Below are positions 17,826-50,737 of a stretch of DNA of 64,000 nucleotides, one piece after another (positions within the stretch are counted from its first letter, which is position 1; the number at the start of each line of letters is the position of its first letter). Source of the DNA: Desulfobaccales bacterium (GTDB taxonomy: Bacteria; Desulfobacterota; Desulfobaccia; Desulfobaccales; 0-14-0-80-60-11); contig JBBFLF010000002.1 of assembly GCA_037481655.1 (NCBI GenBank), positions 65,856-129,855 of the forward strand, given 5' to 3'. Made by a program: the position numbers and the translations under genes. The notes under the pieces were generated by a model. It worked only from the letters and a program-made list of their open reading frames with translations. It was not told the origin of the DNA and made no database searches.

Positions 17826-17835
17826 AGACAGGATC

Positions 17836-17898
17836 GGGAGAGGGGACCAGGGGGCGGTGGCCCCCTGCCCCCTCTCCCGGGCCCTCTCCCCCAACCCC
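17836..17898. repeat. GC-rich inverted-repeat element, copy A1
   Basis: A 63-base element of G- and C-runs with a long internal hairpin. Its reverse complement matches the element at 18827-18888 closely and that at 21297-21359. A1 and A2 face each other and enclose the 17915 gene and tadA. Confidence 0.7.
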
Positions 17899-17914
17899 GT
17901 AAAGGGAACATTCC

Positions 17915-18292
17915 ATGTTCGGTGTCGGCATTCTGGTGGGACTGGGCAGGCGGCTGGTGGCCGCGGTGGCGGCGGACAGCGGCCTTCTGCCTGCCGGGTA
18001 TTACCGCCACCGGGTGCTGGCAGCTCTGGAGGAGGAGGATTTCGAGGCCGCCCTCCGGTATCTCCCCTGGGCCGAGGATGCGGTCCTCACCCAGGTGGTC
18101 ATCCTGCGCTTGCGGTTGCTCCAGGCCCGGCATGGCAAGCGGCAGGATGTCTGCCGCCAGGCCCTGGAAAAGCCCGGCACCCCGGAGCAGAAAGCCAGAC
18201 TTCGCCAGGTGTTGGCGGCGGAGGCTCAGGCGGCCAGGCTTCTCAGGGAATACGAGGGTCGGGCCAAGGCATTGCTGCCGCAGGCTACCTAA
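17915..18292 (+). CDS. Hypothetical protein, helical repeat-like
   Basis: A 125-residue mostly helical protein. The segment YYRHRVLAALEEEDFEAALRYLPWAEDAVL resembles a TPR-like helical pair, but no repeat was proved. An N-terminal hydrophobic stretch (VGILVGLGRRLVAAVAA) may associate with the membrane. It lies between two inverted copies of a GC-rich repeat, just before tadA (18 bases). No function is recognised. Confidence 0.65.
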   Translation: MFGVGILVGLGRRLVAAVAADSGLLPAGYYRHRVLAALEEEDFEAALRYLPWAEDAVLTQVVILRLRLLQARHGKRQDVCRQALEKPGTPEQKARLRQVLAAEAQAARLLREYEGRAKALLPQAT

Positions 18293-18310
18293 AGGGGCGG
18301 ACAGGGAGAG

Positions 18311-18826
18311 GTGTCCACGGTTTTGCCGGCCGAACGCCCGGATGAGGACTACATGGGCGAAGCCCTGGACCAGGCCCGGCTGGCCCTGGCGGCGGGCGAA
18401 GTGCCGGTGGGCGCGGTGCTGGTGGGGCCGGACGGCGCGGTGCTGGGCCGGGCCCACAACCTGCCCATCTCCTTGAGCGATCCCACCGCCCACGCCGAGG
18501 TGCTGGCCCTCCGGCAGGCCGCGGCCCGGGTGGGGAATTACCGGTTGCCGGGCACCACCCTCTATGTTACCATTGAGCCTTGTCTGATGTGTGTGGGCGC
18601 CCTCATCCAGGCCCGGGTGGCCCGGGTGGTCTTCGGGGCGGCGGATCCCAAGGCCGGGGCCTGCGTGTCTTTGTATCGCATCCCTGAGGACCGGCGGCTC
18701 AATCATCGCTTTCAGGTGACCGGCGGGGTGCGGGAGGAGGAATGCCGGGAGCTTTTGACGGAGTTCTTCCGGGCCCGGCGGGGCCGGGGCGAGGACAAAG
18801 GCACGCCGACCGCGGATAAAAGTTAA
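18311..18826 (+). CDS. tadA: tRNA-specific adenosine-34 deaminase TadA
   Basis: A 171-residue zinc deaminase that converts A34 to inosine in tRNA-Arg(ACG). The catalytic HAE (His61, Glu63) and PCLMC (Pro90, Cys91, Cys94) motifs are intact, with FGAADPKAGA downstream as in TadA. The GTG start at 18311 sits close to GGGAGAG; an alternative ATG at 18353 would still keep the catalytic domain. The C-terminal tail is charged and low-complexity. It ends immediately before repeat copy A2 and upstream of two tRNA-Ser genes. Confidence 0.92.
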   Translation: MSTVLPAERPDEDYMGEALDQARLALAAGEVPVGAVLVGPDGAVLGRAHNLPISLSDPTAHAEVLALRQAAARVGNYRLPGTTLYVTIEPCLMCVGALIQARVARVVFGAADPKAGACVSLYRIPEDRRLNHRFQVTGGVREEECRELLTEFFRARRGRGEDKGTPTADKS

Positions 18827-18888
18827 GGGGTGGGGGGAGAGGGCTTGGGAGAGGGGGCAGGGGTCTCCGATCCCTGGCCCCCTCTCCC
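18827..18888. repeat. GC-rich inverted-repeat element, copy A2
   Basis: A 62-base element in the opposite orientation to A1. It contains GGGAGAGGGGGCAGGGG and, after a short loop, the near complement CCCTGGCCCCCTCTCCC. No T-tract follows closely, so it is not a standard terminator, though it could act as one. Confidence 0.7.
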
Positions 18889-18915
18889 AAATGAAATAAA
18901 ATATTAATCATCTCG

Positions 18916-19254: not shown

Positions 19255-20862
19255 ATGACCTACCAGGTCCTGGCCCGGAAGTGGCGGCCCCAGACCTTTG
19301 AGGAGGTGGTGGGCCAGGAGCCCATCACCCGCACCCTGAAAAACGCCCTGGCCCAGGGCCGGGTGGCCCATGCCTTTCTGTTCTCCGGCCCCCGGGGGGT
19401 GGGGAAGACCTCGGTGGCCCGCATCCTGGCCAAGGCCTTAAACTGCGCCCACGGCCCCACGCCTGAGCCCTGCAATACATGCCCCCAGTGCCGGGAAATC
19501 GTCAGCGGCGCCAGCCTGGATGTGCTAGAAATCGACGGCGCCAGTAACCGGGGCATTGATGAGGTGCGGGACCTCCGGGAAAAGATCAAATACGCCCCGG
19601 CGGCGGGCAAATACAAGGTTTATATCATCGACGAAGTGCACATGCTCACCAAGGAGGCCTTCAACGCCCTCCTGAAAACCCTGGAGGAGCCGCCGCCCCA
19701 CGCGGTCTTTGTCCTGGCCACCACCGAGCCCCACAAGGTGCCGGCCACCATTCTTTCCCGCTGCCAGCGCTACGACTTTCGGCGCCTGCCCACCGGCGCC
19801 ATCCAGGAGTATCTGGCCACCCTGGCGGACAAGGAAGGCTGGGAGATTGAGCCCGAGGGGCTGGCCCTCATCGCCCGGGAGGCGGAGGGGAGCCTGAGGG
19901 ATGCCCAGGGATTCCTGGACCAGGTGGTGACCTTCGGCGGCACCCGGGTGAGCGCCCAGGAGATCGCCCGCATTTTGGGGGTGACGGAGCGCCGGGCCCT
20001 GCTCTCCGCCCTGGAGGCGGTGGTCCGCCGGGACGGGCTGGCCGCCCTGACGATAGTGGAGGAGCTGTACAACCTCGGCCACGATCTCAAGCGCTTCTAC
20101 CAGGACCTGGTGGGCTATGCCCGGCATCTGCTTTTGGCCGGACTGCACCCGGAAGCCCGCAGCCTGGCGCCAGTGGCGGACAGCGAATGGCAGGAACTCA
20201 CCCGCCTGGCCCGGGAAGTGCCGGCAGTGCAGCTCCACAACCTGCTGAGCGTGCTTTTGGAGGGCGAGGAGGAACTCCGGCGGGCTCCGCAACCCCGGCT
20301 GGCCCTGGAGATGCTGCTTCTGCGCCTCATCCACCTGGAGCCCCTGACCCCGGTGGGGGAGTGGCTTACACGCCTGGAGGCCCTGGAAAAGCGCCTGGCG
20401 GCGGGCGAGGCGGCCCCCAGACTGGCGGAGCCGGCCGCCACCCGCCTCCAGGCCGGGTCTGCCGCAGGGATGGCAATCCCCACCCCTCCGGGGGATGATC
20501 TGGAGACCACCTGGCGCGGCTTCCTCGCCTATGTCAAGAAACGGGAGGATGGCCCCCTGTATGCCAAGCTGGCCGCCTTATGGCCAAAACGGCGGGACGG
20601 GGGCAGGCTGTGGCTGAGCGGGGACCGGCCCCTGACCTTCGTGGGCCCCAAGCAGGAGAGCCGCTTCCGGGAGCTGGTGCAGGGCTTTTTCGGCCCCGAG
20701 GTGGAGCTGGCGGTGGAGGTGGCGGAGAAGCCCCGGTCCAATCCCGCGCCCACCGCGGCCGACCCCCCCGGGGCGCTGGATTTCACCACCCTGAAGCAAT
20801 ACGCCCTGGACATCTTCGGGGGCACCTGGGAGGCCCGCCAGGGCAAGGAGGAAAGCGAGTGA
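19255..20862 (+). CDS. dnaX: DNA polymerase III subunit gamma/tau
   Basis: A 535-residue clamp-loader ATPase. The N-terminus TYQVLARKWRPQTFEEVVGQ is diagnostic; the P-loop GPRGVGKT is at residues 45-52, zinc ligands Cys64, Cys73, Cys76 and Cys79 follow, then IIDEVHMLTKEAFNALLKTLEEPP (Walker B) and the SRC sensor motif. The C-terminal third, less conserved, should bind the polymerase. No A-AAA-AAG slippery site for a gamma frameshift product was seen. The stop overlaps the ebfC GTG, so dnaX-ebfC-recR form the usual recombination/replication cluster. Confidence 0.96.
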   Translation: MTYQVLARKWRPQTFEEVVGQEPITRTLKNALAQGRVAHAFLFSGPRGVGKTSVARILAKALNCAHGPTPEPCNTCPQCREIVSGASLDVLEIDGASNRGIDEVRDLREKIKYAPAAGKYKVYIIDEVHMLTKEAFNALLKTLEEPPPHAVFVLATTEPHKVPATILSRCQRYDFRRLPTGAIQEYLATLADKEGWEIEPEGLALIAREAEGSLRDAQGFLDQVVTFGGTRVSAQEIARILGVTERRALLSALEAVVRRDGLAALTIVEELYNLGHDLKRFYQDLVGYARHLLLAGLHPEARSLAPVADSEWQELTRLAREVPAVQLHNLLSVLLEGEEELRRAPQPRLALEMLLLRLIHLEPLTPVGEWLTRLEALEKRLAAGEAAPRLAEPAATRLQAGSAAGMAIPTPPGDDLETTWRGFLAYVKKREDGPLYAKLAALWPKRRDGGRLWLSGDRPLTFVGPKQESRFRELVQGFFGPEVELAVEVAEKPRSNPAPTAADPPGALDFTTLKQYALDIFGGTWEARQGKEESE

Positions 20863-21173
20863 AGGGCATCGGCGGCCTGATGAAACAGGCCCAACAACTG
20901 CAAAGCAAGATCCAGGCGCTCCAGGAGGAGCTGGGCAAACGCACCGTCAGCGCCCAGGCCGGCGGCGGCATGGTGGAGGCCACCGTCAACGGCCGCCAGG
21001 AACTCCTCAGCCTGCGCATCGACCCGGAAGTGGTGAGCCCCGAGGACGTGGAGATGCTCCAGGACCTCATCCTGGCGGCGGTCAACGAAGCCCTGAACCG
21101 CTCCCGGGAAATGGTGGCCCAGGAAATGGCCAAACTCACCGGCGGCCTGGGAATCCCAGGGATGATGTTATGA
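20859..21173 (+). CDS. ebfC: Nucleoid-associated protein YbaB/EbfC
   Basis: A 104-residue DNA-binding protein of the YbaB/EbfC family. The segments GLMKQAQQLQSKIQ, VEATVNGRQELLSLRIDPE and EDVEMLQDLILAAVNEAL are family hallmarks. The start is GTG 20859, overlapping the dnaX stop by four bases, with AAGGAGG six bases upstream. It forms a dimer that binds and bridges DNA; the link with recR and dnaX is widespread in bacteria. Confidence 0.94.
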   Translation: MKGIGGLMKQAQQLQSKIQALQEELGKRTVSAQAGGGMVEATVNGRQELLSLRIDPEVVSPEDVEMLQDLILAAVNEALNRSREMVAQEMAKLTGGLGIPGMML

Positions 21174-21177
21174 TTTC

Positions 21178-21234
21178 GGGGGGAGGGCCAGGGGCTTCCA
21201 AGCCCCTGCCCTCCCCCCGACCCCCTCCCAACCC
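21178..21234. repeat. GC-rich inverted-repeat element, copy B1
   Basis: GGGGGGAGGG...CCCTCCCCCC forms an almost perfect hairpin of about 18 bp and is followed by CGACCCCCTCCCAACCC. Its reverse complement resembles copies A2 and B2. It starts four bases after the ebfC stop. Confidence 0.75.
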
Positions 21235-21242
21235 GCGCATGT

Positions 21243-21282
21243 CTGCCAGGAAGTCGAGGCCGAAGCCTCGACTTCCTGGCAG
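21243..21282. repeat. Perfect 18-bp inverted repeat with CGAA loop
   Basis: The arms 21243-21260 and 21265-21282 are exact reverse complements (CTGCCAGGAAGTCGAGGC and its complement), enclosing CGAA. No T-tract follows. It sits at the centre between copies B1 and B2 of the GC-rich element, which face each other, making the whole 21178-21359 block a nested palindrome. Confidence 0.9.
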
Positions 21283-21296
21283 TATCCAAACCATAA

Positions 21297-21359
21297 GGGA
21301 TTGGGGAGGGGGTGTGGGGGAGGGGGCAAGGGGCCACCGCCCCTTGGCTCCCTCCCCCA
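21297..21359. repeat. GC-rich inverted-repeat element, copy B2
   Basis: Same orientation as A2. It begins GGATTGGGGAGGGGG and ends in a hairpin with arms GGGGGAGGGGGCAAGGGG and CCCCTTGGCTCCCTCCCCC. Its left part can also pair with the CCCCCTCCCAACCC tail of B1. Confidence 0.75.
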
Positions 21360-21384
21360 CACAGCTGGCCAAAGGAACTAGCCC

Positions 21385-22029: not shown

Positions 22030-23001
22030 ATGAATTCATCATTTCTCAAAAGAATTATAAAAAAGTTTTTATTTATATTAGATTTAATTTTGGCACCCTT
22101 AGTTTTGATTAGTGCAGTAGTTTTGAAATTGATCAGGCGGGCGGGTGTCCAGAGGATGATTGTAAGTCGGTCTATTTTTCATAAAGTTGGAGTTTTTCCA
22201 ATAATAGACCACTATTATGAACCATTATTTAATTTTAAATCAATGAAATATAGGAAAGAAGATAGAAATCTGAATGGGATTAATTTTAATGTATCGGAAC
22301 AATTAAATTTATTGAATAGTTTTAATTATAATAATGAATTATTGGAGATTCCACTGAAAAAAAATAAAGAGTTTGAATATTACTATTACAACGGGTATTT
22401 TGGCCCAGGCGATGCAGAATTTTATTATAGTATAATCAGGCATTATAAGCCCAAAAATATAATTGAGGTGGGAAGTGGATTTTCCACGTTAATGGCATTA
22501 AAGGCGAAAAGAAAAAATCAGGAATCCAACGATGTCTGCAATATTGTGTGCATAGAGCCGTTTGAAAATCCCTGGTTGGAAAAGTTAGATGTTATTTATA
22601 AAAGAAATCTGATTGAAAATATAGAGTTAAATTTCTTCACCATATTAGATAAAAATGATATATTATTTGTTGATTCATCTCATGTAATTAAGCCAGGTGG
22701 AGATGTTTTATATATTTTCCTTCATGTATTGCCTCAGCTTAAACCGGGTGTGATAATCCACATTCATGACATATTCACTCCCAAAGATTATCCCGAAGAA
22801 TGGATAGTCAAGGAAAAAAGGCTTTGGAATGAGCAGTACCTTTTAGAAGCCTTTTTGTCATTTAATAACAAATTTAAGGTGATAGGGGCTTTGAATTTTT
22901 TGAAGCACAATTTTCCACATGAAATTTCAGGAAAATGCCCAATACTTGCGAACGATTTAGCGCGATGTGAACCCGGCTCTTTTTGGATGATGAAGGTTTA
23001 A
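22030..23001 (+). CDS. AT-rich methyltransferase-like protein, probably acquired
   Basis: A 323-residue protein. An N-terminal membrane helix (about residues 12-36) is followed by a class I SAM-methyltransferase-like domain: NIIEVGSGFSTLMALKAK (motif I, about 140-157), a CIEPFENPW acidic strand (motif II), DILFVDSSHVIKPGGD (motif IV) and IIHIHDIF. This resembles Methyltransf_24-like proteins found in surface-polysaccharide clusters. Base composition and codon use (AAA, AAT, TTA, ATA) differ sharply from everything around it, so recent transfer is likely. Its ribosome binding site is poor (GAGAGAAG). It lies between recR and rodA, which are typical core genes. The acceptor substrate is unknown. 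Confidence 0.8.
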   Translation: MNSSFLKRIIKKFLFILDLILAPLVLISAVVLKLIRRAGVQRMIVSRSIFHKVGVFPIIDHYYEPLFNFKSMKYRKEDRNLNGINFNVSEQLNLLNSFNYNNELLEIPLKKNKEFEYYYYNGYFGPGDAEFYYSIIRHYKPKNIIEVGSGFSTLMALKAKRKNQESNDVCNIVCIEPFENPWLEKLDVIYKRNLIENIELNFFTILDKNDILFVDSSHVIKPGGDVLYIFLHVLPQLKPGVIIHIHDIFTPKDYPEEWIVKEKRLWNEQYLLEAFLSFNNKFKVIGALNFLKHNFPHEISGKCPILANDLARCEPGSFWMMKV

Positions 23002-23020: not shown

Positions 23021-24127
23021 ATGTTTGACCGGCGGTTGGTGCAGAATTTCGATTATCCCCTCATCGGGCTGGTGCTGCTGTTGGCCGGTATCGGCATCCT
23101 CAATCTGTACAGCGCCGGTTTCAACCGCACTCCCGAGGGGGCGACCCCGGTCTATCTGAAGCAGATTTATTGGCTGTCAGCCGGCCTGGGGCTCATGTTC
23201 TTCAGCCTGCTCTATCATTACCGGCACTATGAAAAGATCGCCATCCCCCTCTACATCCTGAGCGTGGCGCTCTTGGTCCTGGTGATGGTGGCGGGGAAGA
23301 CGGTCTCCGGGTCCCGGCGCTGGCTGGTGTTGGGCCCCCTGACGGTGCAGCCTTCGGAGCTCACCAAGGTGGCCATCATTCTGGTGTTGGCCCGCTATTT
23401 TTCCCGGCGGCCCCAAACCGCGCCCCTGGGGCTCAGGGATCTCCTGGCGCCGGGGGCTCTGGCCTTGCTGCCGGCGTTCCTCATCATCAAGCAGCCGGAT
23501 CTGGGCTCCGGGCTGTTGGTGCTGGCCGTGGCGGGGGGGATCACCCTGTTTGCCGGGGTGCATTGGCAGACCCTGGCCTTGCTGGCGGGGACCGCCGTGA
23601 TCGGCGCGCCCTTGGCCTGGCCTTTTCTTAAGGATTACCAGAAGCAACGGCTCCTCACCTTCCTGGATCCGGAAAAGGACCCTCTGGGATCGGGGTATCA
23701 CATTATCCAGTCCAAGATCGCGGTGGGCTCCGGCCAGTTCTGGGGCAAGGGTTTTCTCTGCGGCACCCAGAGCCAGCTCTATTTCCTGCCGGAGCAGCAC
23801 ACCGACTTTGCCTTTTCGGTCTTTGCCGAGGAGTGGGGCTTTGCCGGCTCGGCGCTCTTGGTGCTCCTCTACGTGGGGCTGATCCTTTATGGCCTCATGG
23901 TGGCCCGCAACTGCCGGGACCGCTTCGGCCAGTACCTGGCGGTGGGGGTGACGGCCCTCCTCTTCTGGCAGATCTTCATTAACCTGGGCATGGTCACCGG
24001 GCTGGTGCCGGTGGTGGGCATCCCTTTGCCCTTCTTCAGCTACGGCGGCTCCTCCCTCATCACCACCTTGCTCGCCCTGGGAGTGCTGATGAACGTGCGC
24101 ATGCGCCGCCATCTCTATGGGGGGTGA
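23021..24127 (+). CDS. rodA: Rod shape-determining peptidoglycan polymerase RodA
   Basis: A 368-residue SEDS-family glycosyltransferase with about ten membrane helices that polymerises lipid II in side-wall growth. Motifs include LNLYSAG, GSRRWLVLGPLTVQPSELTKVA, IKQPDLGSG, the EQHTDFAFSVFAEEWGF loop and the C-terminal PFFSYGGSSLI. RodA is favoured over FtsW by the N-terminal DYPLIGLVLLLAGIGILNLYSA and by length. The start ATG 23021 has only a weak ribosome binding site; the AT-rich gene just upstream may have replaced the original leader. No mre genes are in the window. Confidence 0.94.
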   Translation: MFDRRLVQNFDYPLIGLVLLLAGIGILNLYSAGFNRTPEGATPVYLKQIYWLSAGLGLMFFSLLYHYRHYEKIAIPLYILSVALLVLVMVAGKTVSGSRRWLVLGPLTVQPSELTKVAIILVLARYFSRRPQTAPLGLRDLLAPGALALLPAFLIIKQPDLGSGLLVLAVAGGITLFAGVHWQTLALLAGTAVIGAPLAWPFLKDYQKQRLLTFLDPEKDPLGSGYHIIQSKIAVGSGQFWGKGFLCGTQSQLYFLPEQHTDFAFSVFAEEWGFAGSALLVLLYVGLILYGLMVARNCRDRFGQYLAVGVTALLFWQIFINLGMVTGLVPVVGIPLPFFSYGGSSLITTLLALGVLMNVRMRRHLYGG

Positions 24128-50455: not shown

Positions 50456-50544
50456 TGCACCCTGCTTCCTTGATCCCTGGGGTGCCGGGAGGCCAGCTCC
50501 CGGCGGCGTCGGCCCCAATGCCTCGTTGGGGGACGCGGTGGCTT

Positions 50545-50705
50545 ACAGGCAGGTCTTCTGGCTCCCGGATCGTCCTACTTCCTGCGCCTTCCCGCCCGCA
50601 AAGGGCAGTGGCTTTATGCAGGGTTCGTCCCCGGTGACAGCGGCGGGACCGCGCCGGAATTGCACCGGCTTCCCTTTTCAGCCCGGAGGGCACCTGTCAG
50701 CTCGT
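50545..50705 (-). promoter_or_regulatory. Cobalamin riboswitch
   Basis: On the minus strand the conserved order is visible: an AAAAGGGAA-xx-CCGGTGCAATTCCGG core, CGCGGTCCCGCCGCTGTCAC, GCCACTG, GGCGGGAAGG, and the closing AGCCAGAAGACCTGCC, pairing with the 5' GACAGGTGCC. It lies about 190 bases upstream of btuB, just after a promoter, and before a terminator. Confidence 0.93.
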
Positions 50706-50708
50706 CTC

Positions 50709-50737
50709 ATCTTAAAAGGGGGGCAGGCCGGGGTCAA
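50709..50737 (-). promoter_or_regulatory. Sigma-70 promoter of the cobalamin operon
   Basis: On the minus strand, TTGACC (plus 50732-50737) and TAAGAT (plus 50709-50714) are 17 bases apart. Transcription would start at about 50702, exactly where the riboswitch begins. Confidence 0.75.

Follow-up and report, generated by a model that had tools for sequence, protein, structure and literature searches.

The palindromic block between ebfC and recR in the genome of a Desulfobaccales bacterium is probably a long-form copy of an orphan REPIN-like element, a non-autonomous mobile repeat spread as single-stranded DNA by an HUH-type enzyme. The repeat is dispersed, has a defined anatomy with covarying stems, lies between genes and lacks a target duplication. 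The window, that is, the whole stretch of DNA that was analysed, comprises 64,000 nucleotides and belongs to a genome (G000) of 2.87 Mb in 50 contigs. In REPIN theory the repeat population is kept up by a RAYT. The genus studied here has an abundant and structurally well-kept REPIN-like population but no detectable RAYT, and its sister genera are rich in RAYTs that serve other palindromes. It therefore offers a natural experiment on whether repeats of this kind can persist without a mobiliser, or with a different one.

The block between ebfC and recR

An inverted-repeat search revealed two facing GC-rich hairpins with complementary tails at 21175–21362, and between them an 18-bp perfect hairpin with the loop CGAA. 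Hairpin units were scored with R1, a covariance model derived from 40 such units. The features of the block, its neighbouring genes and two solitary units in the window are as follows.

17834–17896, − strand: solitary B-type unit between 17825 and an ORF starting at 17915 (R1); an orthologous copy is present in G002
18829–18890, + strand: solitary B-type unit, 2 bp past the stop of a tadA-like gene (R1)
20859–21173, + strand: ebfC (YbaB/EbfC family), its stop codon ending 1 bp short of the element
21175–21233, − strand: unit A, formed by the left hairpin (21176–21220, inverted-repeat search) and a G-rich tail; R1, 66.6 bits; the − strand reads GGGTTGGGAGGGGG
21243–21282, no strand assigned: central hairpin C, perfect 18-bp stem, loop CGAA
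21298–21360, + strand: unit B, formed by the tail GGATTGGGGAGGGGG and the hairpin 21312–21362 with a bulged G; 79.2 bits
21385–21987, + strand: recR, downstream of the block

A preliminary description made from the sequence alone had reported the perfect 18-bp inverted repeat, which was recovered with arms at 21243–21260 and 21265–21282. It had also taken the outer elements to be inverted copies of a single element that can pair with each other. They are indeed homologous, and 21209–21229 is complementary to 21304–21324 at 90%, but they represent two distinct subtypes, A and B. The strong folding expected of the block was borne out in modelling, with −88.3 kcal/mol (z −12.1) for DNA and −157.1 kcal/mol (z −12.5) for RNA, none of 200 shuffled sequences being equally stable in either case. 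The predicted order of the fold is hairpin A, a tail:tail stem with the central hairpin C inside it, and hairpin B. The block matched no family in Rfam. Elsewhere in the window, at 50531–50712 on the − strand, Rfam identified a cobalamin riboswitch with 127 bits.

Of the 40 genomes searched, 24 gave matches to the block. G000 is one of these; 20 are from its family (f1), where all but one of the 21 other members matched, and three are from a second family of the order. In the gap between ebfC and recR, G002, of the same genus, has an orthologous block (L031), L033, which comes from a different genus, has an A-like unit, and G001, also of the same genus, has unrelated sequence and no block (L032). 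In other genera (L034–L040) this gap holds different inverted or palindromic repeats, including one that has a GTAG head (L037); the gap looks like a recurrent landing place. No report of repeats of this kind in Desulfobaccales-like bacteria came up in a literature search. Directly 3′ of recR lies an AT-rich gene for a Methyltransf_24-domain protein (22030–23001; ~30% GC, compared with 64% for the window). The gene order shared with G001 and G002 picks up again at 23021, so that this gene looks like a lineage-specific acquisition.

Copies, anatomy and placement of the repeat

The preliminary description proposed a count of copies in the complete genome, and held that a single occurrence, with unrelated sequence in relatives, would speak against its reading. 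The block proved to be multi-copy, with at least 150 R1 matches to hairpin units in G000, nearly all above 58 bits, and G002 has it at the same place. As a DNA query, the block gave at least 102 matching pieces from the best 40 of 214 candidate places in G000. The census rests on sequence searches and sampled stretches, the latter yielding 115 distinct units in 451 kb, one per 3.9 kb, in a sample that partly favours hit-bearing stretches; contig C1, read contiguously over its first 160 kb, has one per 3.7 kb. The 64-kb window is poorer in units than the sampled stretches. Copies also stand at many contig ends in G000. The closest non-tandem paralogous doublets share 94% identity over about 135 bp, and an identity no higher than this argues against a recent burst of the element. 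In contig C1 (L111, 1334–1757) a short-form doublet and the end of the preceding gene are duplicated exactly in tandem.

Of 41 pairs of adjacent units separated by less than 200 bp, 37 are oriented tail to tail. The spacers of the doublets form two classes, 7–15 bp and 56–67 bp, with a single exception of 175 bp, the central hairpin C being confined to the long form. Judged by tail class, 30 of 36 doublets combine one A and one B unit, the remainder being mostly ambiguous. In the aligned units the bulged G on the 3′ arm of the stem is nearly invariant and a CGTC terminal motif is absent. The two outermost positions of the stem are variable, yet they are paired in 89% and 76% of units, compared with 62% and 30% after shuffling of the partners. 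A motif of four G-runs is present in 108 of 115 unit tails. A GT(A/G)G head on the 5′ side of the stem, a hallmark of REPINs and the defining feature of published RAYT-linked REPs, is absent as a conserved feature from the 115 tails checked; GTAG occurs in only three, the linker dinucleotide is variable, and GTGG appears, without conservation, where the linker happens to end in GT.

All three stems differ in sequence among copies while pairing is kept. The covariation score of the unit stem is 0.382, compared with 0.176 for shuffled and at most 0.174 for slid alignments, with 96.2% of cells paired and double-sided changes in 11 of 18 pairs; that of the central hairpin (46 copies from several genera) is 0.449, compared with 0.150 and at most 0.142, with 89.2% paired and both-side changes in 16 of 17 pairs. 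Kinship among copies inflates these scores, but the slid controls retain the kinship and score low. The structure of the spacer's central hairpin is conserved across genera. Orthologous copies in G000 and G002 present another picture: 0 compensated and 11 broken pairs at ebfC–recR, 0 and 3 at 17834, and 5, 5 and 1 compensated against 12, 22 and 11 broken at three further loci. Since orthologues mostly decay without compensation, stem structure looks important for spread rather than for upkeep at each site, although the evidence is mixed.

With genes called by a simple codon-usage gene caller, none of 76 loci in the sampled stretches lies inside a gene; 52 are in co-directional, 14 in convergent and 5 in divergent gaps, and 5 are at the ends of stretches. 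Measured from the stop codon of the gene upstream, the median distance to the element is 8 bp. The same extragenic placement has been described for published REPs (PMC3733652). No target-site duplication was detected across 36 doublets, and no clean empty site was found in G001 or G002, where the sites compared hold unrelated or eroded sequence.

The putative mobiliser and alternative origins

The REPIN/MITE-like layout proposed in the preliminary description agrees with the many copies, the tail-to-tail doublets, the intergenic position after stop codons and the covariation; it fails in the GT(A/G)G head and in the RAYT (Y1 transposase) gene that was to be looked for. The three genomes of the genus, G000, G001 and G002, which are 95–100% complete, gave no match to Pfam Y1_Tnp, to the NCBIfam RAYT model or, at E values up to 10, to an alignment of 17 Y1 proteins from relatives. 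The only genes in the window that lie between inward-facing units (17834 to 18829) are an unnamed ORF and the tadA-like gene; no transposase is among them. RAYTs are abundant in sister genera. Six Y1 proteins examined from these match RAYT family NF047646, five of them exceeding its cut-off, and several of the RAYT genes are visibly flanked by palindromes of their own, unlike the A and B units (on each side in L083, L088, L090, L097 and L100). Among 40 Y1 loci of family members (109 kb), R1 found units in three, one of them weak, and in none was the Y1 gene flanked. Because the anatomy and distribution are those of REPINs but neither the head nor a RAYT was found, the element is classed as orphan REPIN-like rather than as a REPIN whose RAYT is known.

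A classical REPIN whose own RAYT is present but was missed, in a repeat-bounded stretch lost from short-read assemblies, is unlikely. Many contig ends carry repeats, so a short gene enclosed by two of them could be missing from the assembly, and the sister genera are rich in RAYTs; against this, none was found in three nearly complete genomes, the sister-genus RAYTs examined are never flanked by these units but stand among other palindromes, and the head is lacking. It is also doubtful that the repeat is a functional element of the host, with RNA hairpins past the stop codons that shield 3′ ends or adjust expression within operons, and that were spread and retained for this purpose. The position just past stop codons, the small number of divergent gaps, the very stable RNA fold and the different palindromic repeats in the ebfC–recR gap of several other genera would fit such a role. 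However, the orthologues in G002 gain mostly uncompensated changes, G001 lacks the block at ebfC–recR, and fixed A/B doublets with a bulged base are more in keeping with a mobile element than with a generic stabiliser.

Two further origins can be given very little weight. The ends of the block are inverted and its copies dispersed, as in a MITE of a DDE transposon with terminal inverted repeats, but 36 doublets showed no target-site duplication, which leaves the MITE part of the preliminary description, in its DDE form, unsupported, and hairpins with a conserved bulge do not resemble ordinary terminal repeats. The strong GC-rich stems within an intergenic gap might suggest a pair of intrinsic transcription terminators, but neither hairpin is followed by a T-run, copies often stand in gaps between co-directional genes, and sequence, tails and doublet arrangement are common to the family.

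For an orphan REPIN-like repeat, the single-strand HUH route is the most likely by likeness to REPINs. Hairpins A, B and C and the stem between the tails would fold on one strand; an HUH-type single-strand transposase would recognise the stem with its bulged G and cut beside the hairpins, and the excised element would be joined into intergenic sites without target duplication. The putative mobiliser would be a Y1/HUH-type enzyme that acts in trans or has since been lost. As it was not found in the sampled genomes of the genus, it has probably been lost or acts from unlinked, unrecognised genes. A bolder proposal, rather improbable, is that of a three-hairpin REP-like family moved, now or formerly, by a non-RAYT enzyme, with a code of bulged-G stem and G-rich tails replacing the GTAG head. 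In such a family the palindromes might be maintained by copying from one hairpin arm to the other. At its present site between ebfC and recR the element is probably a passenger, and the RNA fold predicted there could modulate recR expression or mRNA stability.

Relation to known repeat systems

The closest parallels are found in three published systems. The REPINs of Pseudomonas fluorescens SBW25 (PMC3116915) are likewise inverted pairs of hairpins with inward tails, with solitary remnants and an extragenic spread, and their variable spacer can form a hairpin with compensatory changes, as here. Structured spacers and compensatory changes are known both for REPINs (PMC3116915) and for REP dimers (PMC3733652). 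The present element differs from the SBW25 REPINs in occurring in a genus without a RAYT, in lacking the GT(A/G)G head, in having two distinct unit subtypes, and in having two discrete spacer classes, the longer with a homologous third hairpin.

The CGTC REPs (PMC3733652) form palindromic dimers with structured spacers and have no dedicated transposase, and in both cases the resident tyrosine transposases are never flanked by the repeat. They are an example from the literature of palindromic dimers that lack a transposase of their own. The element described here has no CGTC terminal motif, and its stem sequence and G-rich tails are different. With the REP/BIME sequences of E. coli, the substrates of TnpA-REP (PMC8266576), it shares a conserved irregularity in the stem, which in E. 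coli is required for recognition, and the combination of two unit types, which in E. coli are the y and z units of the mosaics. The GTAG head is essential in the E. coli system; the element here has instead a long G-rich tail and a variable linker.
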